64,000 bases of DNA from Absidia repens. Taxonomy: Eukaryota; Mucoromycota; Mucoromycetes; Mucorales; Cunninghamellaceae. Within the stretch, counting starts at the first letter, position 1. The number at the start of each line of letters is the position of its first letter. Positions 36,168 to 64,000 of the stretch are shown in pieces. The notes below the pieces were generated by a model that was not told the DNA's origin, did no database searches, and saw only the letters and a list, made by a program, of their open reading frames with translations. Position numbers and translations under genes: made by a program. The DNA lies in the NCBI GenBank assembly GCA_002105175.1, contig MCGE01000055.1:5001-69000 (forward strand). Direction: 5' to 3'.

Positions 36168-36228
36168 ATTGAGTTTAAAATAGATTTTTGTAAAAAGATG
36201 AAAATAAAATAATATTCACTTAAAAAAA

Positions 36229-36528
36229 TGTAATATTTGATAAAATAATAAGAAGACGTTATAAGAAATAAGTGATATAACAGATATGGTTTTTATTGAA
36301 TAAAATGAGGAAGGGTTTTTATAATAAAATGGGGAAAAGAAGGCTGTGCTAGTTGTGGCTGTGGATATGGTCGAAGAATGGTAATTTGAGGCTATGGAAA
36401 GTTGGTTATCTGTAGATATAAGTATATATGCCTAAGTAGTGGATACTCGAGGCTGTGTTTTATACCTGTATAGGAATGACAAGTGTGATAGTGTGGGAAA
36501 TGATTAGTGACAGATGACAAATACGACA
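36229..36528 (-). mobile_element. 5' LTR of the chromovirus (300 bp)
   Basis: Same length as 30904-31203 with only a few differences. The flanking five bases (CTGGT at the right, GTGAC at the left end of the element) do not match. The right flank is Gag coding sequence of another element; the left flank is not. Confidence 0.95.
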
Positions 36529-37347: not shown

Positions 37348-37767
37348 CGTTCAATTGAGACCCAAAAAAAATAAGAGGGAGAGGAAAAAAAAAAATGTGT
37401 AAAGGGGATCGGAGTTCTGCAAAAAGTAAGGGGAGTGAGGGTAACAAAATATAAAGGGTGAGGGTGTTGTTGGTAAAAAAAAAATATACTGCACTAGACA
37501 AAAAAAAATATGAAATCACTAAAAAAAATAAAACTGCACTAACAATCAAAAAAAATAAAACTGCAAAATAAAAAAAACAAAATCGCCTAAACTAAATAAA
37601 AGGGGCAAATCAGCCAATCAGCGGCCAAAAAAAAAAATCAAGTTACTAAAGTGATAAAAAAAATAATCTAAAAACTAAAACGTTTCATCCACGACTGAAG
37701 GTAGAAGGATGTGTATATAAAAAAAAGGAGGATAACACGAAGACGTACACCTATAGTTGCTCTATAA

Positions 37768-42404: not shown

Positions 42405-42642
42405 GACAACTTGACTTCCAATACAAGGAGACTAAACGGTCTTTTCCCAAACAAATAGATTGAATACAACAAACGAGTGTTTATTTATAAATTGAATAAA
42501 AGGTAAAAAAAAGTGATGAATAAAAGATAAAGATGGTTTTTTTTTTTTGTGTGTCTCCTCAAAAAAAAAAATCTTATTCTACAAAAAAAATTTTTTTTTT
42601 GACTAATATACTAACTTCCATTCCGATCTATACTAGTAGGCT

Positions 42643-45387: not shown

Positions 45388-46193
45388 CACTGACGCCCCG
45401 AATCTTTTCCCGACGCATCTTGATTAACAGGTTTGGGACACATTCGACGCGGATGCCCGACTTCACCACAATTCCAACATTCCAAAGGAGGACGAGACCT
45501 GTTAGCGTCGTATGCAGAAGGACCATTGGGACGGGGGCCCATCTTCAAGGCTTGGACATCAGCAGTCAGATTCTTGATATTCTGTGTCAATTCTTCATAA
45601 GACGGCGTGGCTTTGACATTGGCATGATTGACAGCAGAATAGTACTGTGTGGACGACGACGAAGGTACGGCAGCCAAATATCGACGATTGACCTTATCAA
45701 TATTGACCGCTTGCGCCGCCACTTCATCATACGTATTGCCAAGACCGGAACGTTCCACCCATAGAGCAACTTCGGAGTCGATGGCCTTCAGGAAAGTGCG
45801 GATCATTAGACTGTCGTTGGTGATGTTGACTAACCCAAACAATTCCTTCAATTTTAAAGCGACTTCTTCAACGGTTTGGCCAGGCTTTTGAGTGATGCTT
45901 GCGATTTCTTCCCAATAGGTAGCTTCGAGATGACGGCAGAACTTCACCTTGAACAACACTTCGAAATCCAACCAAGTCTTCACACGATCTTCATGAATAG
46001 ACCACCAAGTTTCGGCCATTCCACGAAGATGTGATCCAACAACCAATAAGGCATCCACATCAGCTAACGATGCACCACGACGGATACGATTGATACTTCT
46101 TAACCAAGCGACAGGGTCTTCACCAGGTTGGGCAGCAAAAGGAGAAGGGTCCCCGAGGAAACGAGTAGCACGGCCTTTAGATGAGTCAGACAT
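45387..46193 (-). CDS. Gag of element A, 268 aa
   Basis: Structural protein of the virus-like particle. Capsid-type helices (PVAWLRSINRIRRGASLADV, LRGMAETWWSIHEDRVKTWL, TVEEVALKLKELFGL) and a perfect zinc knuckle CWNCGEVGHPRRMC (about 237-250). ATG at 46193. The stop (45387-45389) overlaps the Pol frame. The same layout as the T-element Gag, except that one lacks a knuckle. Confidence 0.93.
   Translation of the reverse strand: MSDSSKGRATRFLGDPSPFAAQPGEDPVAWLRSINRIRRGASLADVDALLVVGSHLRGMAETWWSIHEDRVKTWLDFEVLFKVKFCRHLEATYWEEIASITQKPGQTVEEVALKLKELFGLVNITNDSLMIRTFLKAIDSEVALWVERSGLGNTYDEVAAQAVNIDKVNRRYLAAVPSSSSTQYYSAVNHANVKATPSYEELTQNIKNLTADVQALKMGPRPNGPSAYDANRSRPPLECWNCGEVGHPRRMCPKPVNQDASGKDSGRQ
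45405..45411 (-). promoter_or_regulatory. -1 frameshift slippery site G GGA AAA between gag and pol of element A
   Basis: In the Gag frame the codons read TCG GGA AAA, so the heptamer G-GGA-AAA is in the exact register for -1 slippage, six codons before the Gag stop. After slipping, the Pol frame is open. I did not fold the downstream RNA. Confidence 0.7.
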
Positions 46194-46246
46194 GTAGTAA
46201 GTTGGAAGTAAAAAAAATCGATCGAAAGAAAATGAATGTAGAAAAA

Positions 46247-46264
46247 CCCCCTGGTAGTCTCACC
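46247..46264 (-). other. Primer-binding site of element A
   Basis: Minus-strand TGGTGAGACTACCAGGGG, identical to 37768-37785. It was next to the LTR (spacer aaaaa) before the insertion of 46270-47086. Confidence 0.7.
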
Positions 46265-47423: not shown

Positions 47424-47876
47424 TGACACGCCGTGGAAGTTATATTTCACTCTCCGAAGGACTGGAGCTACGAAGGACTGTAGAATCAGTGAATGACTCT
47501 GCCGTGGTGTCATCATTCACGTATTTCGCATTTTGACATTTCTTTTATTTTACTTTATCTTATTTTTTATCTCCTCTACATTATATTTTATTCAACGCTC
47601 TCTCGCTATTAGTTTAGTTTCATACTACTTTCTCTTAGTCGTACCTTAGTATATAAATACTCTGTTATCGAATACATTAATAAAATAATCTCTTTCTCGG
47701 ATTGATTTCACTTTATTTTGGTATAAATATCTTTCACTCAATATTTATTGGGGAAACGACCTCAGGAATATTATCACTTATACTCTTCGTAAAGGATCTC
47801 GTTTGTATCAAGTATAATATATCCTTCTCCTACTCGCAGTCAGTCCTCTTTTTATATAAGCCCTCCGTTTGTCAAA
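47424..47876 (+). mobile_element. LTR Y, copy 2, solo, 453 bp
   Basis: TGACACGCCG to CCGTTTGTCA, aata on both sides (47420-47423, 47877-47880). TATATAAATACTC (about 47650) and AATAAAATAATC downstream show plus orientation. It ends 7 bp before the tRNA gene. Confidence 0.88.
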
Positions 47877-47883
47877 TATATCA

Positions 47884-47957
47884 GCTCGCTTAGCTCAGTT
47901 GGTTAGAGCGTGGTGCTAATAACGCCAAGGCCACAGGTTCGACCCCTGTAGTGAGCA
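47884..47957 (+). tRNA. tRNA-Ile (anticodon AAT), 74 nt, no intron
   Basis: Seven-base acceptor stem GCTCGCT/AGTGAGC (one G-U), D arm GCTC/GAGC, anticodon stem TGGTG/CGCCA around loop CTAATAA, T arm ACAGG TTCGACC CCTGT, discriminator A. Consensus A and B boxes are intact (TAGCTCAGTTGG; GGTTCGACCCC). A T5 run follows 5 bp after the end. The gene is hemmed in by retrotransposon DNA 7 bp upstream and 14 bp downstream yet keeps all tRNA features, so it is probably active. Confidence 0.97.
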
Positions 47958-47967: not shown

Positions 47968-48004
47968 GCCATGTTGTGGCTGTTTTTAAGTTTTGTTATA
48001 GGTG

Positions 48005-48837
48005 TGTTACGGGTATTTTTGAGTTAATAAAATAAATGTAATGTACCAAATATGTATGGTTTGTTGAAATAATATGAGCCGTAACGGTATGAAGTTAACC
48101 TTTTAGTTAAGTTCAAGTAGTATTTTACACCAAATAGATAGTGTATAAGTGTTTTCTTGTTCTTGCTTGAACGGATTTGCAGTGAGGACCAAAATATATT
48201 TTTCCCCTGAATCGGAATTTGAAATGTCCTTTTTTGTTTACTTGACTCGTAGTCTTGAAAAATAGAGAGTACCAAATATCCAATTAAATTATTTGATATA
48301 AGTAGAAAGTACCAGATTTGTTATTGGTAATAAGTAGTGAGCACCAGAACCTTTGTAGATAAAGTCCAACTTGAAATAAAAGAAGTTTTTAAAAGAAAAC
48401 TTGATAAAATAAAATAAAGTAGAAGTATTGACCTTAGCTTGGTTCAATAAAAATAAAAAAGAGTATAGCTGACTCTGAAAATAAAATAAATAAAGATTTC
48501 TATAGCAAAATAGAAATGACTTGATAGCTTGATGTTTTTATAAAAAAACTTTAGATTGACTTTTTATTTTTATTGAGAAAAAGAATAAATTGAAAAAACT
48601 GAAGAATAATATTTTATAACAAAAAGTTGGCCCTTTTATACTAATTTTTAAGGAGCGGAGTGGGTTTGGTCGTCGACGAGATTTGGAGGAGCGAAGTAAA
48701 ATGATAGGTGGAGGAGAGCGGAGAAGAAGAAGAAGTCGACGACGAGATGACGATGGCTGCGGCATCATTCAGTGGTAGCCCACGCCATCAGTTCGCCCAA
48801 ACCAAAGAGATTGGCCAATTCCATGTTATGGTCCACA
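48005..48837 (-). mobile_element. 3' LTR of the T element (833 bp)
   Basis: Minus strand TGTGGACCATAAC to ACCCGTAACA. Same length as 53601-54433 and no difference noticed. The first 73 bases encode the last 23 residues and stop of the accessory protein. TATA box AGTATAAAAGGG near 48635. Four internal copies of the tRNA-Ile 3'-end motif (near 48190, 48274, 48314, 48345). Confidence 0.95.
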
Positions 48838-49193
48838 TGTCCCTCCCCTGGGAAAGCGACACCGGCGTTTTGATCCCATTCATCAGAGTCGGCAACCTTT
48901 CTTATGACGGCATTGATGTGGCGGCGGTTGCTGTTTTGTAACAATTTGACCAAGAAGCGACGTCTTTCCCGACGATAAGTAACATATCCCAAAGCAGAGC
49001 TGGGTCTTTCCATCTTGAGGTGAATAAGTTCAAGCAGATTTGGCACCAAATGATTGTTTAGAGTGGAGTGTTTTGACCAATAATGCTGCCTTTCCGAAAA
49101 GGCGTGAGCTTGGTAAATGTCAAAGTGGTGGTTAACCATGTTTTCCAAATAGATTTCTTGATCTTGTTCAGTTACGTTCCAAGAGGAGTTCAT
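48765..49193 (-). CDS. Accessory protein of the T element, 142 aa, tail encoded in the LTR
   Basis: Occupies the place of integrase. ATG at 49193. The body (about residues 1-118) is predicted helical, charged and aromatic (FSERQHYWSKH, HLVPNLLELIHLKM, YRRERRRFLVKLL, INAVIRKVADSDEW) and resembles the relic at 24661-25157. Residues PGEGH are encoded by the polypurine tract CAGGGGAGGGAC. From 48837 on, the frame is inside the 3' LTR and gives VDHNMELANLFGLGELMAWATTE. No integrase zinc finger or DDE triad, and no family I know. A poly(A) tract and TTTATATAAATATC (about 49270) lie about 75 bp upstream of the ATG, suggesting a separate transcript. The role is unknown; an acidic-amphipathic end would fit protein tethering. 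Confidence 0.8.
   Translation of the reverse strand: MNSSWNVTEQDQEIYLENMVNHHFDIYQAHAFSERQHYWSKHSTLNNHLVPNLLELIHLKMERPSSALGYVTYRRERRRFLVKLLQNSNRRHINAVIRKVADSDEWDQNAGVAFPGEGHVDHNMELANLFGLGELMAWATTE
48838..48849 (-). promoter_or_regulatory. Polypurine tract of the T element inside the accessory ORF
   Basis: AGGGGAGGGACA on the minus strand, directly before the LTR start TGTGG. It is translated as part of the accessory protein. Confidence 0.75.
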
Positions 49194-49276
49194 TTTTGAT
49201 GTTTGATAATAAGTGGGTTGAATGAGTAAAAAATTATACAGGGAAATTTTCCTTTTCTTCGATCTTGATATTTATA

Positions 49277-49308
<32 letters not shown>

Positions 49309-49440
49309 GATTAGTACAAATGAGATGAACGAGCACCAACTATATTATTTTTTCTTTTGCACCAAATATATGTATATAGTATCAAATATATGAGAGTTTT
49401 CAAACACCCAATATGTGTTCACCAATTATAATTCGTCTTT

Positions 49441-52440
49441 CTAGTAGCCGAGCCTACTCATAAAGTCAACAGCTTGGTGTAGTTTGCCAGATTTGTATCT
49501 TAGTTCAAAATCATAGTCGGTTAGGTATTGTACCCATCTTGCCACTATGCCAGAAATTTTCGGCGATTCAATTATCCATTTTAGAGGTTGATGATCTGTG
49601 ATCACAATAAACTTTTGCCCTAATAAATAAGGTCTAAATTGTTGTACGGCAAATACTAGAGCCAAACATTCCAACTTGCTTGCGCCATAGTTTTTTTCAG
49701 CTGCCCGTAATCCTCTACTTGAAAATATAATGGGGTGTTCCTTGCCATCTTCATCTTTTTGACATAATATGGCACCTAGTCCCAGTTTGCTGCCATCACA
49801 GTGTACTATAAATTCTTTTTCAAAATTAGGCCTCTTCAATATTGGCGTAGTTGTGAGCATTGTTTTTAAAGTTTCAAATGCTTTTGTTTCTTCTATTCCC
49901 CAACTTGTACGATCATTTTTAGTTTGATTGTGTAAGGGTCTTGCTATTTTGGCAAAGTCCTTGATAAAACGGCGGTAGTATGACGCTAAGCCAATAAATC
50001 CCCTCACTTGTTTGATTGTAGTGGGTACCGGATAATTTTTCACTTTCTTGATTTTTTCTTCATCGGTCTTGATTCCGTCACTGGTTATGATGTATCCCAG
50101 GAATTTTAATTCACTTCTAAAGAAGGTACATTTTTCCACATTAAATAAAAGTCCACCTTTCCGAGTGAATCTGAATAGTTGTTCCAGATCGAGTAGGTGT
50201 TGGTCCGTATTTTTTGAATGGACATTTAAATCGTCAATAAACGCGACTAGACATTTATGCAAAAGTTGTTGGTAGCATAAATCTATTAATCTTTGGAAGC
50301 ATGCTGGTGATCCTTTTAATCCCATCGGTAGTGTGATATATTCGTAAACTCCAAATTTTGTTGTAAAACCAGTTAAAGGTTTGCTTTTTTCATTCAAAGG
50401 TACTTGATGAAATCCTGATCGTAGATCCAAAGCTGAAAAAATACGTGAATCACCCAATTCATCTATTAAATCATCGATCCGCGGAAGTGGATATGGATCA
50501 TCCCTAGTTTGTTGATTTAATTTTCTATAGTCCACTACCATTCGATATTCACCATTTTTTTTCTTCACCAATATTATAGGAGATGTATAAGGTGTATTTG
50601 AAGGCTTGATAATTCCCATTTTACATAGTTTATCCAATTCTGCCTTAAGATGCTTTGATTCCTCAGGGCTTATTCTGTATGGCCTGTGTCTTATAGGGGT
50701 GACTTCCTTTTCGAGAACAATTTCATGCTCAGTTAGATTTGTTAATCCCATCTTGTCATTATTCCAATCGAATATATCTTGATAGTGGTGAATTAGTTTA
50801 TAGAATTTTCTTTTTTGTTCTGGGGTTACTTCTCCCATCTGTAATTTTTGTATAATGTTTGGATCCAATATAATTTCTTTGCCATCATCCTGGTTAAAAA
50901 TAGATTCATATGTTTCAGCTGAATTCCAGGTTTTTAATTCATAGGCACTGTATTCCATTATTTCTTCATTTTGATCATTTAATAATTGAGTATGGAATTC
51001 CCCAAGTACTTGTTCCGGTGGTATTCGCATTTCCTCTTCGGTTTGATTAATAAAGCTTAGTGAATTTTCTTTATTGCGAATATTTATCATGCTTGCCAGC
51101 GGTTGGTAAACAAAAGAGGCTTCATGATTTTCGGGATTTAAATTTATGCAGCAGGCTGCATAAGGTGGAATATTCAAACCGGCATTCTGTGTAGATACTG
51201 TTAGTGTATTTTCTATATTATTTTCACTTACTCGAATATTTTGTTCAAGGCTATCCATGATATATAATTCTTCTTCTTCTTCTTCTTCTGATTCTGATTT
51301 TTCATCATGTTCCCATCCTTCTGATTCGGTTTCTTCATCTGTTGAATTTTCTTCTGAATCCTCAGATTCATCTTGTGACCATCCAATATCTTTTTCATCT
51401 GCTTGATAATGTACATGATTCACTTTTATGGGCACAAACTTCTTATCGGTTGATTTGACATAAGTAATAGGTATCTTCTGTCGCTGCCGTTTATATGTGA
51501 GCTTTAAATATCCTGTTTTAAAGTCGATAATAGCTTGCACATGGCTTAACCAGTTATTTCCCAAAATAAAATGCGCAGGGCACCTTGGTATTACTTCCAT
51601 GTTTGATGGAATAATAATTTCATTCCCCACATTGATTGGTACGTCTTGTATCATTCCCAAAGTAGGCTGTTTATTTCCATTTCCAAGGGTGAATACACTA
51701 TTTGAAGATGTATCGATTTCCAAATCCAAAGCCTTCATCATACTTCTAGACATAGATGATCTGGAGGCACCACAATCAACTAGGCCTTTTATTTTTTTAT
51801 CACCTATTTGGAATTCAGCATAGACTGCGGTTGTGACTACATCGGTTTCTTCCATTGTATTCATTGTGACATCTTTGTCTGCATCTTCAGTGGGAATTCT
51901 TTTGTGTCTTTGATCCCTACAAGCTTTTACCAATTTTGTTCGTAGTGGTGTAGCTATTTTTAATAATTCACCCAGTTCAATATTTGCTTTTTGTTGAAAC
52001 ACATCTTGCACAATATCATATTTAATGTTGGGTGTGGTGTATTTTCGCCGATTTACTTTTTTTGTGGATTTTTCAATTTCAGGGGTAACTGTTGATTTTG
52101 GTGTAACAATTTCCTGAATAACAATATCCTCATTTATAGGTCGATTATTTTCAAGGTCTTGACCTATTTGTTCCTTGTGATGTTTTATGGCTTGATTTCC
52201 CTTTTTATTTTTTGGTGTTGGTTTTGTGATAACCTTTCTGTTGGAAGCAGTTTTAACTTCAGGTGGTTTTTCTTCCCGATGAGCTGCTGCTACGTAAAAA
52301 TCTTGATAATAGTCATCCTCATTATCTTCAGTTAATAATATATTAAAGTCTTGATTGGATTGTTGTGGATTAGATTTATACAATTCATTTGAATTTTTGT
52401 TGATGGTTTTTTGATGTTGTTGAGCCAATTGACCATCATT
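49441..52440 (-). CDS. Protease, reverse transcriptase and RNase H of the T element, no integrase
   Basis: About 1000 codons, frame open back past 52443 and entered by -1 frameshift from Gag. Retropepsin-like GLVDCGASRSSMSRSM at about 222, with Cys at the usual Thr/Ser of D-T/S-G. An acidic run (ESEEEEEEEL) at about 395. RT with SPIILVKKKNGEYRMVVDYR and FSALDLRSGFHQVPL and catalytic FIDDLNVHS at about 735. RNase H IVHCDGSKLGLGAIL at about 880, LECLAL and ITDHQPL. Ends HQAVDFMSRLGY and stop. The frame ends where integrase should begin, and nothing with integrase motifs follows before the LTR. Confidence 0.93.
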   Translation of the reverse strand, partial: NDGQLAQQHQKTINKNSNELYKSNPQQSNQDFNILLTEDNEDDYYQDFYVAAAHREEKPPEVKTASNRKVITKPTPKNKKGNQAIKHHKEQIGQDLENNRPINEDIVIQEIVTPKSTVTPEIEKSTKKVNRRKYTTPNIKYDIVQDVFQQKANIELGELLKIATPLRTKLVKACRDQRHKRIPTEDADKDVTMNTMEETDVVTTAVYAEFQIGDKKIKGLVDCGASRSSMSRSMMKALDLEIDTSSNSVFTLGNGNKQPTLGMIQDVPINVGNEIIIPSNMEVIPRCPAHFILGNNWLSHVQAIIDFKTGYLKLTYKRQRQKIPITYVKSTDKKFVPIKVNHVHYQADEKDIGWSQDESEDSEENSTDEETESEGWEHDEKSESEEEEEEELYIMDSLEQNIRVSENNIENTLTVSTQNAGLNIPPYAACCINLNPENHEASFVYQPLASMINIRNKENSLSFINQTEEEMRIPPEQVLGEFHTQLLNDQNEEIMEYSAYELKTWNSAETYESIFNQDDGKEIILDPNIIQKLQMGEVTPEQKRKFYKLIHHYQDIFDWNNDKMGLTNLTEHEIVLEKEVTPIRHRPYRISPEESKHLKAELDKLCKMGIIKPSNTPYTSPIILVKKKNGEYRMVVDYRKLNQQTRDDPYPLPRIDDLIDELGDSRIFSALDLRSGFHQVPLNEKSKPLTGFTTKFGVYEYITLPMGLKGSPACFQRLIDLCYQQLLHKCLVAFIDDLNVHSKNTDQHLLDLEQLFRFTRKGGLLFNVEKCTFFRSELKFLGYIITSDGIKTDEEKIKKVKNYPVPTTIKQVRGFIGLASYYRRFIKDFAKIARPLHNQTKNDRTSWGIEETKAFETLKTMLTTTPILKRPNFEKEFIVHCDGSKLGLGAILCQKDEDGKEHPIIFSSRGLRAAEKNYGASKLECLALVFAVQQFRPYLLGQKFIVITDHQPLKWIIESPKISGIVARWVQYLTDYDFELRYKSGKLHQAVDFMSRLGY

Positions 52441-53510
52441 CACAATTGGCTGTTGAAGTTTTTTGACAAGTTTTGTTTATGCAAATTGGAAGGTTGCTGA
52501 GTTTGATTCTCATTTTGGCGTTGGTAACCATTATTACGTGGCCTATATTCTTGTTGCCTATTATTTCCATATTGCTGAGCACCAAATGTGTGGCTTTGAT
52601 ATCTATTATAATTATTCCTGAATCTGTTTTGTTGATATCCTTGTCCTTGACTCATTTCTTGTCTTATCGTTTGACGGATTAGTTCTTGAATGTCATCAGG
52701 TTCAGTTAATTCTTGGGGTTTGCTTGTCTTTTTTAATTTTTTATCTTCAATAAAAATATTGTCGGACTTCTGGCTCATTTTATCAGCCACTAAGGTTGCA
52801 AGCTTTTCCAAGAAACCATTTTGATTTAAATCGTCTTCATCCACTGAAGTATCCATAACATTTAAGCTAGTGGGTTGTATCATAGGCATGCTATTGGCAA
52901 AATTAAAAGATTTGGCCTTCTTGATGGTACTTTTTGTTCCATTTGTGGTTTGATTTATATTTTCTGATCGATAGGCCTTCCACCAATCTTCTGAATGTTT
53001 TTTCCATTCTTCTAAGGTAGTGGCTCCAAAGGCTAAACAGTGTGCTCTAATAGGAGGAAGCAGTCCTGTTCTGAATCGATTCAATAACACAGTTTGATCA
53101 GTACTCTCTGCCAATTTAGCAGCTGATCTCAATCTTGTATAGTATGACTGGGGTCTTTCATCATTTTCTTGAGCCATATCATTGTATGCGAAATTATATT
53201 GCTGGATTAATTCAGTTGTGACATATTGATCCTTTAAAGCGTCAATGGCACCATGATATGTTAAAGGTCCTTTGAGAGTATCTTGCCAATCTTCCATGAA
53301 AGCTTCAGCTTCTCCATATAAAAGAGAATTGAGAATAATAATTTTTCGATCATTGGCAGTAATGTTAGTCAGGGCAAAGTAGTTGTCCAATAGTTTTTTA
53401 AATTGACGGAAGTCTTCTCCTTCCTTAGCTGAGAAAGTAATAACACGGGGCTTAAGTCCCTTGAGATGTTGCTCATGTGTGCTAGCCAACACAGTATGTT
53501 CTTGATCCAT
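52440..53510 (-). CDS. Gag of the T element, 356 aa
   Basis: ATG at 53510 (MDQEHTVLAST). Capsid-type region (FRQFKKLLDNYFALTNI, SLLYGEAEAFMEDWQ, ERPQSYYTRLRSAAKL, LLNRFRTGLLPPIRAHCL). No CCHC knuckle; instead an Asn/Arg/Gln-rich C-terminus (NRFRNNYNRYQSH, NNRQQEYRPRNNG) that could bind RNA. Stop TGA at 52440-52442. Intact. Confidence 0.92.
   Translation of the reverse strand: MDQEHTVLASTHEQHLKGLKPRVITFSAKEGEDFRQFKKLLDNYFALTNITANDRKIIILNSLLYGEAEAFMEDWQDTLKGPLTYHGAIDALKDQYVTTELIQQYNFAYNDMAQENDERPQSYYTRLRSAAKLAESTDQTVLLNRFRTGLLPPIRAHCLAFGATTLEEWKKHSEDWWKAYRSENINQTTNGTKSTIKKAKSFNFANSMPMIQPTSLNVMDTSVDEDDLNQNGFLEKLATLVADKMSQKSDNIFIEDKKLKKTSKPQELTEPDDIQELIRQTIRQEMSQGQGYQQNRFRNNYNRYQSHTFGAQQYGNNRQQEYRPRNNGYQRQNENQTQQPSNLHKQNLSKNFNSQL
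52458..52464 (-). promoter_or_regulatory. -1 frameshift slippery site A AAA AAC between gag and pol of the T element
   Basis: Gag codons TCA AAA AAC place the classic heptamer A-AAA-AAC in the correct register, five codons before the Gag stop. The -1 frame then runs openly into Pol. Confidence 0.78.
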
Positions 53511-53577
53511 GTTTGATATGATCTTAATGTTTCTTGTAGTTGTTTATAAAAATTGACTTGATTTTTTTTTTTTTGTA

Positions 53578-53596
53578 ACCCCTGTAGTGAGCACCA
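53578..53596 (-). other. Primer-binding site matching tRNA-Ile(AAT) of this locus
   Basis: Minus-strand TGGTGCTCACTACAGGGGT is the exact complement of the last 16 bases of the tRNA at 47884-47957 plus CCA, 19 of 19. Four bases (TATT on the minus strand) separate it from the LTR end. Confidence 0.93.
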
Positions 53597-53600
53597 AATA

Positions 53601-54433
53601 TGTTACGGGTATTTTTGAGTTAATAAAATAAATGTAATGTACCAAATATGTATGGTTTGTTGAAATAATATGAGCCGTAACGGTATGAAGTTAACCTTTT
53701 AGTTAAGTTCAAGTAGTATTTTACACCAAATAGATAGTGTATAAGTGTTTTCTTGTTCTTGCTTGAACGGATTTGCAGTGAGGACCAAAATATATTTTTC
53801 CCCTGAATCGGAATTTGAAATGTCCTTTTTTGTTTACTTGACTCGTAGTCTTGAAAAATAGAGAGTACCAAATATCCAATTAAATTATTTGATATAAGTA
53901 GAAAGTACCAGATTTGTTATTGGTAATAAGTAGTGAGCACCAGAACCTTTGTAGATAAAGTCCAACTTGAAATAAAAGAAGTTTTTAAAAGAAAACTTGA
54001 TAAAATAAAATAAAGTAGAAGTATTGACCTTAGCTTGGTTCAATAAAAATAAAAAAGAGTATAGCTGACTCTGAAAATAAAATAAATAAAGATTTCTATA
54101 GCAAAATAGAAATGACTTGATAGCTTGATGTTTTTATAAAAAAACTTTAGATTGACTTTTTATTTTTATTGAGAAAAAGAATAAATTGAAAAAACTGAAG
54201 AATAATATTTTATAACAAAAAGTTGGCCCTTTTATACTAATTTTTAAGGAGCGGAGTGGGTTTGGTCGTCGACGAGATTTGGAGGAGCGAAGTAAAATGA
54301 TAGGTGGAGGAGAGCGGAGAAGAAGAAGAAGTCGACGACGAGATGACGATGGCTGCGGCATCATTCAGTGGTAGCCCACGCCATCAGTTCGCCCAAACCA
54401 AAGAGATTGGCCAATTCCATGTTATGGTCCACA
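53601..54433 (-). mobile_element. 5' LTR of the T element (833 bp)
   Basis: Direct repeat of 48005-48837. GGTG at 48001-48004 and 54434-54437 is a 4-bp target duplication; the unoccupied sequence survives in relatives near 58503-58550 and 61776-61830 (TTGTTATAAGTGAATACC). Confidence 0.95.
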
Positions 54434-54490
54434 GGTGAATACCAAATATGTTATGGTAGTGTTGCGGCTAAATTTGTGATTTTAGTCCAA

Positions 54491-55397
54491 TGTTACGGCT
54501 ATTTTTGAGTTAATAAAATAAAAGTGTGTACCAAATATATGTGGTTTGTTTAGTTTATATGAACCGCAACGAAGAAAAGTTAACCTTTTTGTTGAATTTC
54601 AGTTATATTTTACACCAAATGGGTAGTGTATAAGTGTTTGCTAGTTGTTGCTTGAATGGATTTGGTAGTGAGGGTCAAAAAATGTTTTCCCCTGAATCGG
54701 AATTTGAAATGTACTTTTTTGTTTACTTGACTTGTAGTCTTGAAAAATAGAGAGCACCAAATGTTTTATTTGATATAAGTAAAAAGTACCAGATATGTTA
54801 TTGGTAGTAAGTAGTGAGCACCAGAACTTTTATAGATAAAGTCCAACTTGAAAGAAGTTTATAAGAAATAAACTTGAAAAAAATAAAAGATATTGACCAG
54901 TAGGGTTCAATATAGTAAATCAATAGTGTATATATGAAGATATATAGCACTGCCAAACAAAATAAAAGTACTAAGACTTGAGATTGGTTTTAAAAAAAAC
55001 CTTTTATTGAGAGAATTTATAAATAAAAATTAACTGAAGAAGAAGAGTACAAATAGGAATTTCTTCCTATTTATACCTTTTCTTTAAACAACTGGGAATG
55101 AATTCCCAGTTAAAAAACAATAAAAAAGAACTAAAAAACGATAAAAAAAAGGACGAAAAAGAAGTTAAAAAAATGATAAAAAAAACGTTAAAAAAAGGAT
55201 AAAAAAGAAGCTAAAAAAAAGCTAAAAAAAAGAAAAAAAAGAATAAAAAAAGTTGCAAAAAACAACGGAGAAAAAGAAGGGGTCAAAAAACAAAAATAAA
55301 CGACCCAGCAGAGTCACAAAACAATCCTTAATTTTGAGCCCAGTTGAGCAATTCGTCGATATCAAATAATTTTTCTAGACTGAAGTCATCGCTGACA
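54491..55397 (-). mobile_element. T-family solo LTR 1, duplication CCAA
   Basis: 907 bp; CCAA at 54487-54490 and 55398-55401. Its tail (55397 to stop 55328, 22 aa) is VSDDFSLEKLFDIDELLNWA, then QN. TATA box GGTATAAATAGG near 55075. Outside the tail it is almost the same as LTR 7. Confidence 0.88.
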
Positions 55398-55458
55398 CCA
55401 ACTGGATTGTGTTTTTGTAGGTTTTTTTATGTTTTTCTGGGTTGAATAGGATGTCTTG

Positions 55459-56186
55459 TGTTACAGCTAATTTGGGTTGGAAGCTTGTAACAGAGTAGTG
55501 TTTTTGTAGGTTTTTATATTTTTTTGTGCTGGATAGGATGTCTTGAGTTATCCTTTAGTGTAGCTTTTGCTTGTTTAGAGCTTGAATATGAATTTGTTCC
55601 TTAGGCGGAATTCGAAATATCTTGCCCCTGATTTGGACAAAAATAGAATATAGAGTAGTGAGCACCAGAACTTTTGTAGATAAAGTCCAACTGTAGAGAA
55701 AGTTTATAAAGAATAAACTTGAAAAAGTAATATAAAATAAAAATGAAAAGTATTGACCTTTGTTGGTTCAATAAAAATATAGTGTATAACACACAGTAAA
55801 AATAAAATAAAAAAAGGACTTGTAGTCAGAAAATAAGGAGGTTTCTATGATCCAATAGAAACGGTAGATAATTTGGTGGTATAATAACCTTTGTACTGAG
55901 TTTTATTTAATATATTGGGAAAACTTGAAAAAAAAAACTAAAGAAAAAAATAAAAGGATAAAAAAAGGTGGGATATTTATACTAAAAAAATAAAAGAAAA
56001 TAAAGTTGGACTGAAGCGAGGCGAAACAAGAAAAAAAGTAAAAAGTGATCTGAGATCCAAGATCTGGACCAGGGCAAGCTTCATTCATTCAAAGCCCAGT
56101 CACGGAGCTCTTGCGAGCTGAAGACGTTATTAAACCCGTCCTCGGACTCGCCATCACTGGAAGCAGTCTCGGACTGTTCCTCGACA
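55459..56186 (-). mobile_element. T-family solo LTR 2, duplication CTTG
   Basis: 728 bp; CTTG at 55455-55458 and 56187-56190. Tail (56186 to stop 56081, 34 aa) starts VEEQSETASSDG and ends FNNVFSSQELRDWALNE. TATA box AGTATAAATATCCC near 55975. Internal tRNA-Ile 3'-end motif GTAGTGAGCACCA near 55655. Confidence 0.88.
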
Positions 56187-56190
56187 CTTG

Positions 56191-56878
56191 AGTGATCCTT
56201 TGGTGTAGCTTTGATCGTTTAGAGCTTTGAAAATAAATTTGTTCCTTCGGCGGAATTTGAAATATCTTGTTCCTGAATTGGACAAAAATAGAATTGATAG
56301 TAGTGAGCACCAGAACTTTTGTAGATAAAGTCCAACTGTAGAGAAAGTTTATAAAAAATAAACTTGAAAGAGTAAAAAAATAAAAAAGAAAAGTATTGAC
56401 CTTTGTTGGTTCAATAAAAATAAGTGTATAACACACAGTAAAAAAATAAAAAAGGACTTGTAGTCACAAAAAATAAAAGAAAGTTTCTATATAGACGATA
56501 GAAACAAAATAAAAATAAGACAGTGATTTGGTGGTTAAAAAACCTTTGTACTGAATTTTATAAAAAAGGTTGAGATAAATATGTAAAAATAAATAACTCA
56601 AGAAAAAATAAAATTGTTGCGGGGGAAGTGAAGGTATTTATACTAATCAAAAAAGGGTGGTCGAAAGCAAGAGGTAGTTAAAATATAAGGGTCGTTCGAA
56701 TTCACCATTGTCAAAATCGACAGAGTGTTTTGGGATCGAACTTTAATTCGAGAGTGCCCAGTCGATGAGCTCACGTGTGTTAAAAGCACTTGCAAATACG
56801 TCTTCGACTTCAGCATTACTTGAGTCAACTTGCATTGGATCTTCACTATCTGTATCAACTTGCATCGGATCTTCAACA
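56191..56878 (-). mobile_element. T-family LTR 3 (left end rearranged)
   Basis: Minus-strand start TGTTGAAGATCCG at 56878, followed on the plus strand by CTGG. Tail (56878 to stop 56743, 44 aa) has a duplicated heptad EDPMQVD and ends FASAFNTRELIDWALSN. Its U5 continues left of LTR 2, which is inserted into it. Confidence 0.7.
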
Positions 56879-56900
56879 CTGGGTTAAATAGGATGTCTTG

Positions 56901-57702
56901 TGTTACGGCTAATTTGGGTAAGAAGCTTGTAACAGAGTAGTGTTTTTGTAGGTTTTTATATTTTTCTGGGTTGAATAGGATGTCTTGAGTATCCTTTAGT
57001 ATAGCTTTTGCTTGTTTAGAGCTTGATAATAAATTTGTTCCTTGGGCGGAATTTGAAATAACTTGTTCCTGATTTGAACAAAAATAGAATATAGAGTAGT
57101 GAGCACCAGAACTTTTGTAGATAAAGTCCAACTGTAGAGGAAGTTTATAAAAAATAAACTTGGAAAAGTAAAATAATATAAAAAGAAAAGTATTGACCTT
57201 TGTTGGTTCAATAAAAATATAGTGTATAACACACAGTAAAAATAAAATAAAAAGAGGACTTGTAGTCAAAAATAAAAGAGGTTCCTATGATCCAATAGAA
57301 ACAGTAGATAAATTGGTGGTTAAAAGAACCTTTGTACTAAGTTTTATTTTATAATACGAGAAAACTTGAAAAAAAACTAAAGAAAAAATAATTTCTTCAA
57401 AAAAGTCTGGCTATTTATACTAAAAAAATAATTAAGGTTGGCCAGAAGCAAAAAGTGTCGAAAGCGAAAGATGTCAAGAGCAGAAGGATGTCAAGAGCAA
57501 AAAATGTCAAAAGCAAAAAAAGTCAAGAGCAAAAAGTGTCGAGAGCAAAAAGGTAAACAAATAAGTGTCGGAGGTAAATAAAATTCATTGCGAGCGGGCC
57601 CAATCAAAGAGTTCTCTTGTTCCAAGCAGCTGCGCGAACACATCTTCACCAGAGCTGGAGTTGGATTGCAGTTGGTCTTCGACCTGAGGCTGTTCTTCGA
57701 CA
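56901..57702 (-). mobile_element. T-family solo LTR 4, duplication CTTG
   Basis: 802 bp; CTTG at 56897-56900 and 57703-57706. Tail (57702 to stop 57585, 38 aa) starts VEEQPQVEDQLQSN and ends VFAQLLGTRELFDWARSQ. Upstream of the LTR start the frame stays open for tens of codons. A tandem GTCAAGAGCAAAAA repeat lies at 57455-57560 in U3. Confidence 0.88.
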
Positions 57703-58468
57703 CTTGAGTGATCCTTTGGTGTAGCTTTGATCGTTTGGAGCTTTGAAAAATAATTTTCTTCCTTCGGCGGAATTTGAAATATTTTGTTCCTGAATCGGAC
57801 AAAAATAGATTTGATAGTAGTGAGCACCAGAACTTTTGTAGATAAAGTCCAACTGTAGAGAAAGTTTATAAAAAATAAACTTGAAAGAGTAAAATAAAAT
57901 AAAAAGAAAAGTATTGACCTTTGTTGGTTCAATAAAAATAAGTGTATAACACACAGTAAAAATAAAATAAAAAGAGGACTTGTAGTCACAAAAAAAATAA
58001 GAGAAAGTTTCTATATAGACGATAGAAACAAAATAAAAATAAGACAGTGATTTGGTGGTTAAAAACCTTTGTACTGAATTTTATAAAAAAAGATTGAGAT
58101 AAATATATAAAAATAAATAACTAAAGAAAAGAGAATTGGCGGGGGAAAGGTGGGGTATTTATACTAAAAAATAAAGTGGCGGCGAGTGGGTGTCATGTAC
58201 CTGACAAGTGTTATGTGCATGATAGGTGTTATGTACGTGACAGAGGTAGTAATTTGATGAGAAGATAATATATATGAAAGAACCAATAAAAATAAGATAA
58301 TAAAAGAAAAAAAGAAAATAATTATACACCTTTATTCCTCCATTGCCCAACCAAGAGCATCAGTTACGCCAAAGGCGGCAGCAAGGAAATTGTTGTTGTT
58401 CGTTTCCATGACAGTAGTGTTACGGCTAATTTGGGTAAGAAGCTTGTAACAGAGTAGTGTTTTTCTGG

Positions 58469-60233
58469 TGTTACGGCTATTTTTGAGTAAATAAAATAAA
58501 AGTGTTGTGGCTGTTTTTAAGTTTTGTTATAAGTGAATACCAAATATGTTATGGTAGACTTGACGTTTTTGATGTTATTTGTATAGTTTGGTATAGATAA
58601 AGTAGTATCTTGCACCAATTGTGTCTTGTAATAAATTAATTTTTCTTCCTAGTGAGAGTCAAGAGCGATTTATTTTTCTCTGGACGGAATTTGAAATTTG
58701 GTTTTCTGTGGTCCCTGAATTGACTTTTGTTTATAGAGAGAGCACTAGAGATGTGTCACACCAAATATGTATTTGATAACGAGAAGTGAGTTCCAGATAT
58801 GAGTTTGGATAATAAGTAGTGAGCACCAGAACTTTTATAGATAAAGTCCAACTTGAAATAAAAGAAGTTTTAAAAGAAAACTTGATAAAATAAAATAAAA
58901 TAAAAGTATTGACCTTAGCTGGTTCAATAAAAAATAAAAAGTGAGAGTATAACTGACTCTAAATAAAATAAATAAAGATTTCTATAGCAAAATAGAAATA
59001 ACTTGACAACTTGATAATTTGGTGGTTAAAAAAAACCTTTGTACTGACTTCTATTTGATAATTGAGTAAAGTATATAAAAAAAACTAAAGAGAAAGAAAA
59101 GGATAATAATAAAAAGGTGGGGTATTTATACTATTTTTTGTTGGTTTCGTGTGGTGATGAGTTTTATATTTTTTTTGGTGGTTTTGTTGCTTAGGGCTTT
59201 TTATATTGTTTTTGGTGCGAGTGGTGACATCGCTTCGTTGTTGTGGGGTCAGTCGTTACTTAGACCCCATTCCAAAACCTGATTGATATTGAAAATATCA
59301 GCGGCTATAACACTTGCCGTGTCAGTGGGGTAGTTGGCGGCAGCGGTGTTGGTGGTGTTGGTGGCGGCTTCCACAACAAAAGTGTGTACCAAATATATGT
59401 GGTTTGTTTAGTTTATATGAACCGCAACGAAGAAAAGTTAACCTTTTTGTTGAGTTTCAGTTATATTTTACACCAAATGGGTAGTGTATAAGTGTTTGCT
59501 AGTTGTTGCTTGAATGGATTTGGTAGTGAGGGTCAAAAAATGTTTTCCCCTGAATCGGAATTTGAAATGTACTTTTTTGTTTACTTGACTTGTAGTCTTG
59601 AAAAATAGAGAGCACCAAATGTTTTATTTGATATAAGTAAAAAGTACCAGATATGTTATTGGTAGTAAGTAGTGAGCACCAGAACTTTTATAGATAAAGT
59701 CCAACTTGAAAAAAAATAAAAGATATTGACCAGTAGGGTTCAATGTAGTAAATCAATAGTGTATATATGAAGATATATAGCACTGCCAAACAAAATAAAA
59801 GTACTAAGACTTGAGATTGGTTTTAAAAAAAACCTTTTATTGAGAGAATTTATAAATAAAAATTAACTGAAGAAGAAGAGTACAAATAGGAATTTCTTCC
59901 TATTTATACCTTTTCTTTAAACAACTGGGAATGAATTCCCAGTTAAAAAACAATAAAAAAAGAACTAAAAAACGATAAAAAAAAGGACGAAAAAGAAGTT
60001 AAAAAAATGATAAAAAAAACGTTAAAAAAAGGATAAAAAAGAAGCTAAAAAAAAAGCTAAAAAAAAGATGAAAAAAGAATAAAAAAAGTTGCAAAAAACA
60101 ACGGAGAAAAAGAAGGGGTCAAAAAACAAAAATAAACGACCCAGCAGAGTCACAAAGCAATCCCTAATTTTGGGCCCAGTTGAGCAATTCATCTAAATTA
60201 AATAACCGCTCCAGATTAAAGTCATCTCTGACA
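58469..60233 (-). mobile_element. T-family LTR 7, duplication CTGG, containing LTR 6
   Basis: CTGG at 58465-58468 and 60234-60237. Tail (60233 to stop 60164, 22 aa): VRDDFNLERLFNLDELLNWA, then QN. Sister of LTR 1. Confidence 0.85.
58503..59378 (-). mobile_element. T-family solo LTR 6, duplication AAAG
   Basis: 876 bp; AAAG at 58499-58502 and 59379-59382. Tail (59378 to stop 59249, 42 aa) starts VVEAATNTTNTAAANYP and ends IAADIFNINQVLEWGLSND. TATA box AGTATAAATACCCC near 59130. Confidence 0.88.
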
Positions 60234-60975
60234 CTGGGTTGAATAGGATGTCTTGAGTTATCCTTTTGTATAGCTTTTGCTTGTTTAGAGCTTGAAAATA
60301 AATTTGTTCCTTGGGCGGAATTTGAACTATCTTGTTCCTGATTTGAACAGAAATAGAATTGAGAGTAGTGAGCACCAGAACTTTTGTAGATAAAGTCCAA
60401 CTGTAGAGAAAGTTTATAAAAAATAAACTTGGAAAAGTAAAAGAAAAGTATTGACCTTTGTTGGTTCAATAAAAATATAGTGTATAACACACAGTAAAAA
60501 TAAAATAAAAAGAGGACTTGTAGTCAAAAATAAAAAAGGTTTCTATGATCCAATAGAAACAGTAGATAAATTGGTGGTTAAAAGAACCTTTGTACTAAGT
60601 TTTATTTGATATAATGAGAAAACTGAAAAAAACTAAAGAAAAAATAATTTCTTCAAAAATGTCTGGCTATTTATACTAAAAAATAATTAACGTTGGCCAG
60701 AAGCAAAAAGTGTCAAAAGCAAAAAGTGTCGAAAGCGAAAGATGTCAAGAGCAGAAGGATGTCAAGAGCAAAAAATGTCAAAAGCAAAAAAAGTCAAGAG
60801 CAAAAAGTGTCGAGAGCAAAAAAGTAAACAAATAAGTGTCGGAGGTAAAATATGATTTCATTGCGAGCGGGCCCAATCAAAGAGTTCTTTTGTTCCAAGC
60901 AGCTGCGCGAACACATCTTCACCAGAGCTGGAGTTGGATTGCAGTTGGTCTTCGACCTGAGGCTGTTCTTCGACA

Positions 60976-61771
60976 AAGTGAATACCAAATATGTTATGGT
61001 AGACTTGATGTTTTTGATGTTATTTGTATAGTTTGGTATAGATAGAGTAGTATCTTGCACCAAATGTGTCTTGTAATAATTAATTTTCTTCCTAGTGAGC
61101 GTCAAGAGCGATTTATTTTTTCTCTGGACGGAATTTGAAATTTGATTTTCTGTGGTCCCTGAATTGACTTTTGTTTATAGAGAGAGCACCAGATATGTAT
61201 CACACCAAATATGTATTTGATAACGAGTAGTGAGCACCAGAACTTTTGTAGATAAAGTCCAACTTGAAATAAAAGAAGTTTTTGAAAAGAAAACTTGATA
61301 AAATAAAATAAAGTAAAAGTATTGACCTTAGCTGGTTCAATAAAAATAAAAAGTGAGAGTATAGTTGACTCTGAAAATAAAATAAATAAAGATTTCTATA
61401 GCAAAATAGAAATAACTTGATAACTTGATAACTTGGTGGTTAAAAAAACCTTTGTACTGAACTTTTATTTGTTAAATGAGAAAAGTGTGTAAAGAAAAAC
61501 TAAAGAGAAAAGAAAAGGATAATAATAAAAAGTTGGCTATTTATACTAAAAAATTGATATCTATAGAGATGGTTTGTTTTTGTGTTTTTCATCTATGGAA
61601 TGTATTTTCTAATTTTTTTTGGATGTATATATGTATTTTCTATTTTTTTTGAGATGTATGAATGTATTTTCTATGGACTAGTTTTCATTCATGGCCCAGT
61701 CCATTAATTGGTTAAAACCAAAAATGTCAGCAGCAATTTCCCCAGCGGTGTCTTCAATGCTGGACCCGACA
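60976..61771 (-). mobile_element. T-family LTR 9 (left end not resolved)
   Basis: Minus-strand start TGTCGGGTCCAGC at 61771. Tail (61771 to stop 61678, 30 aa) starts VGSSIEDTAGEIAADI and ends FGFNQLMDWAMNEN. TATA box AGTATAAATAGCC near 61545. tRNA-Ile 3'-end motif near 61232, followed by further ACCAAATAT motifs. Confidence 0.75.
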
Positions 61772-61775
61772 GTTG

Positions 61776-62114
61776 TGTTGTGGCTGTTTTTAAGTTTTGT
61801 TCTAAGTGAATACCAATTATGTTATGGTAGACTTGATGTTTTTGATGTTATTTGTATAGTTTGGTATAGATAGAATAGTATCTTGCACCAAATGTGTCTT
61901 GTAATAAATTAATTTTTCTTCCTAGTGAGAGTCAAGAGCGATTTATTTTTCTCTGGACGGAATTTGAAATTTGATTTGCAGTGGTCCCTGAATTGACTTT
62001 TGTTTATAGAGAGAGCACTAGATATGTGTCACACCAAATATGTATTTGATAACGAGAAGTGAGTTCCAGATATGAGTTTGGATAATAAGTAGTGAGCACC
62101 AGAACTTTTGTAGA
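61776..62114 (-). mobile_element. T-family LTR 10, 3' part only, cut by the chromovirus
   Basis: TGTTGTGGCTGTTTTTAAG as at 47972 and 58503, running to GTAGTGAGCACCAGAAC, where the chromovirus LTR begins at 62115. Its tail-coding end is not in the window. Confidence 0.7.
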
Positions 62115-62413
62115 TGTCGTATTTGTCATCTGTCACTAATCATTTCCCACACTATCACACTTGTCATTCCTATACAGGTATAAAACACAGCCTCGAGTAT
62201 CCACTACTTAGGCATATATACTTATATCTACAGATAACCAACTTTCCATAGCCTCAAATTACCATTCTTCGACCATATCCACAGCCACAACTAGCACAGC
62301 CTTCTTTTCCCCATTTTATTATAAAAACCCTTCCTCATTTTATTCAATAAAAACCATATCTGTTATATCACTTATTTTTATAACGTCTTCTTATTATTTT
62401 ATCAAATATTACA
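62115..62413 (+). mobile_element. 5' LTR of the second chromovirus copy (299 bp)
   Basis: TGTCGTATTTGTCATCTGTC to CAAATATTACA, almost the same as 36229-36528, opposite strand. It is inserted into a T-family LTR. Confidence 0.94.
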
Positions 62414-62474: not shown

Positions 62475-64000
62475 ATGCCTGCTACTACCCGTTCTACTGC
62501 TCAACCTTCAAGCTCCGCTGATGCCATCAATGTTGATCCTACCGCCACTGTAATTGATGCCACTCCTTCATCTGCTGTAGCCATGGAAGTTGATGCCACC
62601 TCTGCCACTACTGTTTCTCCTGATGTCATTCCTACCCCTACTGCTGGTACACCTGGTCTTTCTGCCTCCAAGCATGCCCCTAAGCCCACGTTGAAGGAAT
62701 TACATGACACCTATGTGAAAGAAGCTCAAGAAAAAACAATGGCCTATGTCTTACATGCCGCCGCCAACTCTGATGATCCCTCTTTGGTCGATGAAAGAAA
62801 GGTTTTGGATGAATTGGAATCCAAGATTGCCCTAATCAACCGTACTCTAGCACATGCTCCCTCTGTTGCTCCTCCTGCTGTCTCCTCTGCACCCCACTTC
62901 AGGTTCATAAATGAAATCCCGGTATTCCAAGTGGAAGGGCAAACTATGATAAATGGTGAGCTCCCCTCTTTTACATCGGTCGATAAGTTTATCAGAGCTT
63001 TCGAAAAAGTGATGAATCTTGGTGAAGTCGATCTTGATCTCCATTGGTCCCGCTACCTTGATTATGCTATGCGTGGTGAAGACGTCGACGTTTGGTACGC
63101 TAACAATATGAAGAACGTCTCGATGCCCTGGTCTGCTGCCAAGAAAAAATTGGTGGAAAAATTCTCTTTCAAGAATGATGCCTCTGCTGCCATCCTCGCC
63201 CTTGCTGCGCTACGTATGAAGCACTCCGAATCATTGTCCAAGTTTGGTCTTCGTTTGCAAACACTTTCCCAACAAGCGAATTGGAATGATGGTCCTGTCT
63301 TAGCTGTTATCTGCTTCAAGGCACTCAATGAAAGACTTAGGGAACAAGTCATGGCCGCTCACTACAATAAAGCTCAAGCCCATGGTCTTCCTCAATCCGC
63401 CGAAGAAGTCATCAAGATTGCAACACAGCTACACGTTCAAAAACGTTCGTTCAACCATGTTGACTCTGATTCTGATTCCGACTCCTCTCATCGCCCTCGT
63501 CGCCGCCAACGCCACCAACGTGACAAATCCGTGCGTACTGGACTCTTCTGCTCTCACCATGGTGATAACGCCTCTCATGCCACCAAGGATTGTAGGGAAC
63601 TCCAACGCCTCAACCGCAACAAGAAGGGAAAAGGCCGTGCCATCGATCATGCCCCTAGATCTGCCTCTGCCATCTCTTCATCTGCTCCAACCGCATCTTC
63701 CTCTGCCTCTGTCGCTTCTTCCTCTGCCTTTGCTGCCTCTTCCTCCGCTCCACTTTGCAGGTATTGCAAGAAGGTCCCTTACACCATTGGCCACAAGTGT
63801 CAAGAAGGTCGTGAATACTTTGCGGCACGCAATGCTCGCCTCAATGCCCTAGATATCAGCCACCCTGCCGACACGGAGATGGACAACTACACTGCCTCTT
63901 TGAATGCACTGGCTATCGAAGCTCAGCTCGATAACATCGAAGGTAAAAATAAAAATAAAAATAAAAATAAAAAAGTCTATTGCCACAACATGATCACAAA
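62475..64000 (+). CDS. Gag-Pol of the second chromovirus copy, N-terminal 508 aa, runs off the window
   Basis: Open from ATG at 62475 to the window end. Nearly the same as the first part of the polyprotein at 31344-36167, with small differences (an extra SVAP stretch near residue 130, an extra SSSASVA stretch near 410, and a longer Asn/Lys run near 495). It covers Gag and both Cys/His motifs and stops short of the protease. No stop or frameshift, so possibly a live element. Confidence 0.95.
   Translation, partial: MPATTRSTAQPSSSADAINVDPTATVIDATPSSAVAMEVDATSATTVSPDVIPTPTAGTPGLSASKHAPKPTLKELHDTYVKEAQEKTMAYVLHAAANSDDPSLVDERKVLDELESKIALINRTLAHAPSVAPPAVSSAPHFRFINEIPVFQVEGQTMINGELPSFTSVDKFIRAFEKVMNLGEVDLDLHWSRYLDYAMRGEDVDVWYANNMKNVSMPWSAAKKKLVEKFSFKNDASAAILALAALRMKHSESLSKFGLRLQTLSQQANWNDGPVLAVICFKALNERLREQVMAAHYNKAQAHGLPQSAEEVIKIATQLHVQKRSFNHVDSDSDSDSSHRPRRRQRHQRDKSVRTGLFCSHHGDNASHATKDCRELQRLNRNKKGKGRAIDHAPRSASAISSSAPTASSSASVASSSAFAASSSAPLCRYCKKVPYTIGHKCQEGREYFAARNARLNALDISHPADTEMDNYTASLNALAIEAQLDNIEGKNKNKNKNKKVYCHNMIT

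Follow-up and report, generated by a model that had tools for sequence, protein, structure and literature searches.

A separate, exchangeable accessory gene with an LTR-encoded C-terminal tail in Absidia repens Ty3/gypsy elements lying beside Pol III genes, and its possible role as an adaptor

Two of the features considered here are already known, namely tails encoded by the long terminal repeat (LTR) and insertion downstream of tRNA genes. The plant centromeric chromoviruses of CRM group A are described as having an LTR-encoded C-terminal motif on their integrase (PMC3059260), while Skipper-2 of dictyostelids, a Ty3/gypsy element found ~7-136 bp downstream of tRNA genes, is reported as representing the first LTR elements preferring that side (PMC5006619, PMC5911963). 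In foamy viruses, tas/bet are driven by an internal promoter (PMC3798896). How LTR elements reach the downstream side of genes transcribed by RNA polymerase III (Pol III) is an unsettled question. Here we report on a Ty3/gypsy element, termed T, in a 64,000-nucleotide stretch (the window) of the Mucorales fungus Absidia repens (positions 5001-69000 of contig C51), together with its relatives elsewhere in the genome. These elements harbor a separate small accessory gene with a C-terminal tail written in the 3' LTR, and we propose, at a probability of roughly 0.4, that its product is an adaptor whose tail would dock on the Pol III machinery.

A first-pass annotation of the window, made from its letters only, had claimed that the accessory frame of T crosses the polypurine tract (PPT), enters the 3' LTR and terminates 73 bases inside it, and the coordinates of the open reading frame (ORF) confirmed this. 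It had further claimed that nine other LTRs of the family begin with a frame open in the same phase; the lengths of the ten tails, stop included, were reproduced (70, 70, 73, 82, 94, 106, 118, 118, 130 and 136 bases), and the tails were found to contain no stop in 319 codons, as compared with 9/319 and 34/329 in the other forward frames and 7/329, 9/329 and 17/319 on the reverse strand. The short motif said to close every tail, F-x3-[EQD]-[LVA]-x2-W-[AG], was matched by 9 of 11 LTR 5' edges (T counted twice, slightly wider letter sets), the LTRs 60975 and 57702 having Leu for Phe (LLGTKELFDWA and LLGTRELFDWA, respectively); a control scan of the plus strand gave one match, spanning a stop codon. 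Elsewhere in the genome, accessory bodies are joined to identical or nearly identical versions of five of these nine tails (61771, 60233, 58413, 56186 and 55397), while tail 56878 had no partner among the accessory genes found in the genome. In intact relatives, the accessory frame passes the PPT in the same phase as in T and stops inside the LTR, with the last 22-48 codons being LTR-encoded and ending in an acidic, hydrophobic stretch that approximates [F/L]-x4-[L/V/A/I/T]-x2-W-[A/G]. Full elements with the accessory frame outside the LTR, which the annotation had named as evidence against its claim, turned up solely as broken-looking copies, broken or cut accessory genes being common (L014, L017-L022, L031, L036, L042, L044-L046 and L049 among others, as well as L053, L055-L057, L090 and L098). 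In an alignment of 17 chosen proteins, 16 of which share only 22-56% identity with T while keeping the tail motif, there is no variation at Trp 138 and almost none at Phe 130 or Ala 139; P0009, outside this alignment, has Asp directly after the Trp. The motif is also kept in a second species, with the Absidia cylindrospora homologue P0007 ending in TTFDFQELINWAKSD. As the LTRs read begin with TGT, the Val at the junction is not evidence of selection on the protein.

To judge selection, we compared copies found through the body by NG86 (13 pairs sharing sequences, 17 genes, several pairs saturated at synonymous sites), leaving out the solo-LTR tails L079-L098, which had been found by protein similarity. 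The ratio of nonsynonymous to synonymous rates (dN/dS) in unsaturated pairs was 0.04-0.38 for the tail, with one higher value of 0.56 (L041/L043), and 0.03-0.25 for the body; the corresponding ratio of pooled proportions (pN/pS) in three groups was 0.42, 0.22 and 0.42 for the body, with tail values of 0.28, 0.17 and 0.66, the last of these in the group that has diverged most. Together with the stop counts, these values argue that the tail is coding and under purifying selection in most pairs. The first-pass interpretation of a coding, selected and swappable tail was supported, but its amphipathic helix was not, with 48-93% of shuffles equaling or exceeding the hydrophobic moment in all 17 tails tested. 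All 17 scored tails are acidic, with net charges of -2 to -11, and in 24 sequences (some being the same protein twice) the last 30 residues are negatively charged and include 4-9 W/F/Y/L/M, but several tails are not rare in charge or composition, with 9-20% of gag/pol windows being equally extreme. For the body, AlphaFold predicted four helices, with pLDDT block means of 85-97 over residues 11-110. Some accessory proteins (P0005, P0006, L044, L048 and L056) have an N-terminal extension with a TPPxSP-like stretch, which we take to resemble a phosphodegron; the extensions of P0005 and P0006 also hold EPWSDDWL...LI[ND]LTS, presumably akin to a SUMO-interaction motif.

The description of the tail as interchangeable was upheld by accessory bodies that have been swapped, with or without tail and U3, between backbones that are 87-100% identical; a point absent from the first-pass annotation is that the tail was mostly swapped together with the body. 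This is exemplified by five pairs: 1) between T and the copy on C38 (L012), identity is 97% over U5 and the final part of pol, as against 53% for the body (amino acids), 65% for the tail and 61% for U3; 2) L019 and L038 are 87% identical in integrase and 95% in U5, but 28% in the body, 26% in the tail and 56% in U3; 3) L024 and L027 have 98% identical integrases, with 85% in the body at the amino acid level (pS 0.74, near saturation), 100% in the tail and 97% in U3; 4) L024 and L035 likewise have 98% in integrase, with 75% in the body, 77% in the tail and 93% in U3; 5) L027 and L035 are 100% identical in integrase and 99% in the rest of U3, but 71% in the body and 77% in the tail. The body thus belongs to the exchanged stretch in all five pairs; four of them include the tail as well, while U3 is clearly included in two. 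Relationships conflict accordingly, with the integrase of L019 grouping with that of L038 whereas its accessory protein is closest to the T type. We surmise that minus-strand strong-stop DNA may jump at R to a second RNA and copy the U3 and accessory gene of that RNA, before one template switch would return synthesis to the first RNA. Such a jump and switch would account for the class of exchange that includes U3, with the other classes needing an extra switch. The pattern of exchange may thus be a consequence of strand transfer, whereby genes adjoining U3 swap easily, and the natural cassette swaps amount to ready-made domain exchanges.

The accessory gene probably has its own promoter, as judged by a sequence pattern. 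Of the 23 loci with an ATG, 16 have an A-tract of at least 12 residues and then TATA[A/T]A at 72-102 bp ahead of it, although these loci are related and hence are not 16 independent events; elsewhere in the loci (72,125 bases) the pattern occurred once, and among 4,600 shuffles twice. Loci without it comprised L014, L015 (shorter A-tract), L018, L020, L021, L030 and L033. The window has one match on the plus strand and three on the minus strand, with that of T presumably among the latter.

The position of these elements relative to Pol III genes was assessed from both sides, with locus counts exceeding independent events because several copies are near-identical or overlapping. Starting from the elements, 28 of 90 loci (L009-L098) have a Pol III gene on the 3' side, comprising 27 tRNA genes and one U6 gene; the nearest tRNA gene is antisense to the element in 27/27, and the U6 gene likewise. 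In T, the tRNA-Ile gene ends 47 bp from the 3' LTR. The distance from an element's own LTR end to the tRNA gene was 48-241 bp in 18 measured loci (LTR ends placed by pattern), with 15 of them falling, in the manner of Skipper-2, within about 150 bp downstream of the tRNA gene. No tRNA gene was found 5' of the elements in seven loci (L002-L008), with 398-517 bp covered in the six where the LTR start was located. Starting from tRNA genes, which lessens the bias of the element-side sample, we scored the best 63 of 1,766 first-look candidates; 12 of these tRNAs had an accessory or tail match within 3.5 kb, always downstream and antisense, with ~1 expected by chance. Within the same distance of these 63 tRNAs, there were four accessory-free integrases, all upstream and in sense. 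Three of these four loci (L099-L101) were read; there, integrase runs in the same sense as the tRNA gene and its frame closes 0.3-0.7 kb before it, without an accessory-like frame in between. L100 (C11:74500-76700) and L101 (C10:561300-563600) are two further accessory-free families with long acidic stretches after the integrase core. As LTR-like sequence similar to that of L099 abuts the tRNA-Ile gene next to T on its upstream side, one gene may show both modes of insertion. A tree was built from 12 integrases, with a root of our choice: seven accessory-linked ones, L099-L101, window family 2 and the chromodomain element of the window, L016 having been omitted because of its shortness. The accessory-linked sequences grouped together, their neighbors being L099 and window family 2, the integrases of which share 28-29% identity with that of L010. 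A single fungal genome contains both arrangements, with accessory-bearing elements on the downstream side of tRNA genes and a few accessory-free relatives on the upstream side.

Given the stack of LTRs beside a tRNA gene, tethering to the Pol III machinery is the natural version of the tethering role at which the first-pass annotation had guessed. We speculate that the helical body would join the integration complex of the element, while the LTR-encoded C-terminal peptide would dock on an unchanging surface of the Pol III transcription apparatus, thus doing the job thought to be done elsewhere by a chromodomain or CR motif at the C-terminus of integrase. Being short, acidic and aromatic with fixed spacing, the tail fits a docking motif for a constant partner, and an adaptor to the Pol III machinery is preferred because the cassettes share both this motif and their surroundings. 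More tentatively, we postulate that target choice has moved from integrase to a separate, promoter-bearing adaptor, that a docking peptide written in the LTR lets each round of reverse transcription move the cassette to another backbone, and that the shared motif recognizes the Pol III machinery on the downstream side. Several points weigh against the Pol III adaptor. The link between accessory gene and targeting is a correlation between one accessory clade and few accessory-free families (four integrases), and a constant target does not by itself explain the divergence of the body and its frequent swapping. No Pol III gene was found at 62 of the 90 loci, many of which are nested, truncated or short in flank, with 20 of these misses (L039-L058) being ~1 kb or shorter and not spanning the LTR, and the 63 scored tRNAs are not a random sample. 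In addition, database searches revealed no relative of the accessory protein outside Absidia, no domain or fold match was found for the body, the tail helices were predicted at a pLDDT of about 50-66, and constraint on the tail is weaker in the most diverged pairs (pooled pN/pS 0.66). A tail peptide of about 22-48 residues with an invariant Trp makes binding directly testable.

The main rival is that the accessory protein, in a role akin to that of foamy virus Tas, trans-activates its own element; the body would recognize DNA of either U3 or the internal promoter, with the LTR-encoded tail, acidic and aromatic, serving as activation domain, in which case the gene and its cis target would travel as one cassette. 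Such a trans-activator fits composition and U3 linkage almost as well as the adaptor: acidity in 17/17 scored tails, the pairing of negative charge with 4-9 W/F/Y/L/M in the C-terminal 30 residues (24 sequences), the exchange of U3 with the gene in T vs. L012 and L019 vs. L038, and a likely internal promoter ahead of the gene, comparable to the one upstream of tas in foamy viruses (PMC3798896), all speak for it. Nevertheless, we deem it somewhat unlikely, considering that L027 and L035 are 99% identical in U3 yet 71% in the body, that no DNA-binding domain was recognized in Pfam scans, and that the charge and composition of several tails are matched by 9-20% of gag/pol windows. Activation domains are usually less strict in residue spacing than the accessory tail, where an invariant W and near-invariant F and A stand at fixed spacing in the 17-protein alignment.

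A role in countering host defence, e.g. RNA silencing or heterochromatin, with an arms race driving diversification and swapping while the tail docks on a conserved host factor, would agree with the body having diverged and been exchanged more than any other part of near-identical elements, and with motif-like stretches in some N-terminal extensions (PTPPLSP and LIDLTSEES, the latter presumably SUMO-interaction-like); however, the body is under purifying rather than diversifying selection in unsaturated pairs (dN/dS 0.03-0.25) and no homology to described families was found, rendering this role improbable in our judgment. Least probable by far is that the shared tail is a by-product, the 5' end of the LTR being constrained as DNA for integrase or U3 and the open frame having no role as protein. 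The LTR terminus TGT alone explains the invariant junction Val, the LTRs are related by descent, and the tail pN/pS of 0.66 in the most diverged group would be in keeping with this, but in the two other groups tail changes are mainly synonymous (pooled pN/pS 0.28 and 0.17, pairs sharing sequences), the tail frame has 0 stops in 319 codons vs. 9 and 34 in the other forward frames, and all 17 aligned proteins keep W138 even though 16 are at 22-56% identity to T.

T has the features of Ty3/gypsy elements (Metaviridae), comprising LTRs bounded by TG...CA, a primer binding site (PBS; TGGTGCTCACTAC), a PPT and the order protease, reverse transcriptase, RNase H and integrase, with the place of integrase taken from other copies, in which an ORF with H2C2 and rve matches sits between pol and the accessory gene. 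The integrase ORF of L010, the single clade integrase scanned, has H2C2 and rve and gave no Pfam Chromo match at E up to 0.1, unlike what is expected of a chromovirus. In the 12 loci with a readable integrase C-terminus, the integrase stop precedes the accessory ATG by 106-164 bp, and hence the LTR, so that the LTR-encoded tail belongs to a different protein, at variance with CRM group A (no search was aimed at the CR motif). Unlike other copies, T had no integrase in the Pfam scan. The C38 copy, whose pol 3' end aligns with that of T as far as the accessory region, had no rve match near C38:135 kb. As target site duplications are present on both of these copies, integrase can probably be supplied in trans; T and the copy at C38:133-140 kb, with their different accessory cassettes, probably represent a non-autonomous subfamily mobilized in this way. 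Target site duplications of 4 bp were found in 6/6 elements with both edges located (the C11 element being outside this count). By eye, GTAGTGAGCACCA occurs inside window LTRs, outside the PBS (e.g. 48334-48346 and 53930-53942), and is complementary to the element's own PBS, resembling the 3' end of the tRNA-Ile primer.

The coordinates of T, its neighbors and the nested LTRs are given in Table 1. Among the nine LTRs of the stack, six have matching 4-bp target site duplications (all except 61771, 60975 and 56878), or 7/10 with T included. The nesting may have arisen as one LTR after another entered at much the same distance from the tRNA gene, interrupting its predecessor at the U5 end, and the clustering of LTRs in the window follows from the stack adjoining that gene, a cause that the first-pass annotation had not given. 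A gag-like ORF (by eye) lies beyond the outer edge of the stack (62477-64000, plus strand). Elsewhere in the window, an accessory-free Ty3-type family with gag, pol and integrase as separate ORFs occupies 41079-46259 (minus strand), and a Ty3/gypsy element whose pol ORF includes a chromodomain lies at 31344-37350 (minus strand), identical 263-bp repeats (30941-31203 and 36266-36528) flanking that ORF.

Table 1. Window coordinates of element T, the adjoining tRNA gene and the LTR tails of the stack
Feature	Position	Strand	Basis or remark
LTR-like sequence of an accessory-free family, abutting the upstream side of the tRNA-Ile gene	47440-47883	plus	likeness by eye to sequence before tRNA-Thr in L099; start not delimited
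tRNA-Ile(AAT) gene	47884-47957	plus	T and LTR stack downstream of it, antisense
Target site duplication of T, 4 bp, CACC	48001-48004; second copy 54434-54437	unstranded	
T element	48005-54433	minus	two identical 833-bp LTRs
3' LTR of T	48005-48837	minus	833 bp
C-terminal tail of T accessory protein, LTR-encoded (VDHNMELANLFGLGELMAWATTE), with stop	48765-48837	minus	
Accessory gene of T, 142 amino acids, stop included	48765-49193	minus	ATG at 49193; no match in Pfam scan
PPT of T, crossed by accessory frame	48838-48850	minus	direct reading; layout shared by relatives
Putative internal promoter of T accessory gene, A-tract then TATATAAA	49270-49308	minus	TATA ~85 bp before ATG
pol ORF of T (protease, reverse transcriptase, RNase H)	49441-52476	minus	Pfam; integrase not found
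gag-position ORF of T	52440-53543	minus	no Pfam match
5' LTR of T	53601-54433	minus	833 bp, identical to 3' LTR
Nested solo LTRs of the T family, single orientation	54434-62115	minus	outer end by eye
LTR tail VSDDFSLEKLFDIDELLNWAQN	55328-55397	minus	same tail on L024-L029
LTR tail VEEQSETASSDGESEDGFNNVFSSQELRDWALNE	56081-56186	minus	same tail on L052; L051 differs by one residue
LTR tail ending AFNTRELIDWALSN	56743-56878	minus	
LTR tail ending LLGTRELFDWARSQ	57585-57702	minus	resembles P0008
LTR tail VMETNNNNFLAAAFGVTDALGWAMEE	58332-58413	minus	P0006 and L050 differ by one residue
LTR tail ending DIFNINQVLEWGLSND	59249-59378	minus	resembles tail of frameshifted copy L045
LTR tail VRDDFNLERLFNLDELLNWAQN	60164-60233	minus	same tail on L035
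LTR tail ending LLGTKELFDWARSQ	60858-60975	minus	resembles P0008
LTR tail VGSSIEDTAGEIAADIFGFNQLMDWAMNEN	61678-61771	minus	same tail on L039 and L040

With regard to known systems, foamy virus tas/bet, lentiviral nef and the superantigen gene of mouse mammary tumor virus (MMTV) are 3'-terminal accessory genes, as in Absidia, and overlap the 3' LTR. Database and fold searches with the accessory proteins, made without direct pairwise comparison, gave no similarity to tas/bet, nef or superantigen, and the Absidia gene differs from these in being exchanged as a cassette with or without U3. In open-licence PMC articles, subscription journals not being covered, we found no description of a fungal element associated with Pol III genes whose accessory gene is separate, exchangeable and completed by a tail encoded in the LTR. 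The accessory-free loci L099-L101, upstream of tRNA genes in the same sense, are reminiscent of Ty3 or DGLT-A (PMC5911963); in contrast to such upstream Ty3-like families, the accessory clade occupies the opposite flank in the opposite orientation. Skipper-2 has a diverged chromodomain on its integrase, whereas the single Absidia integrase scanned has no Pfam chromodomain and the clade adds an accessory gene; in Absidia, the nearest tRNA gene was antisense in 27/27 loci. Finally, CRM group A carries its LTR-encoded tail on integrase and targets the centromere, while the elements of this fungus carry theirs on a separate small protein with its own likely promoter and reside beside Pol III genes.

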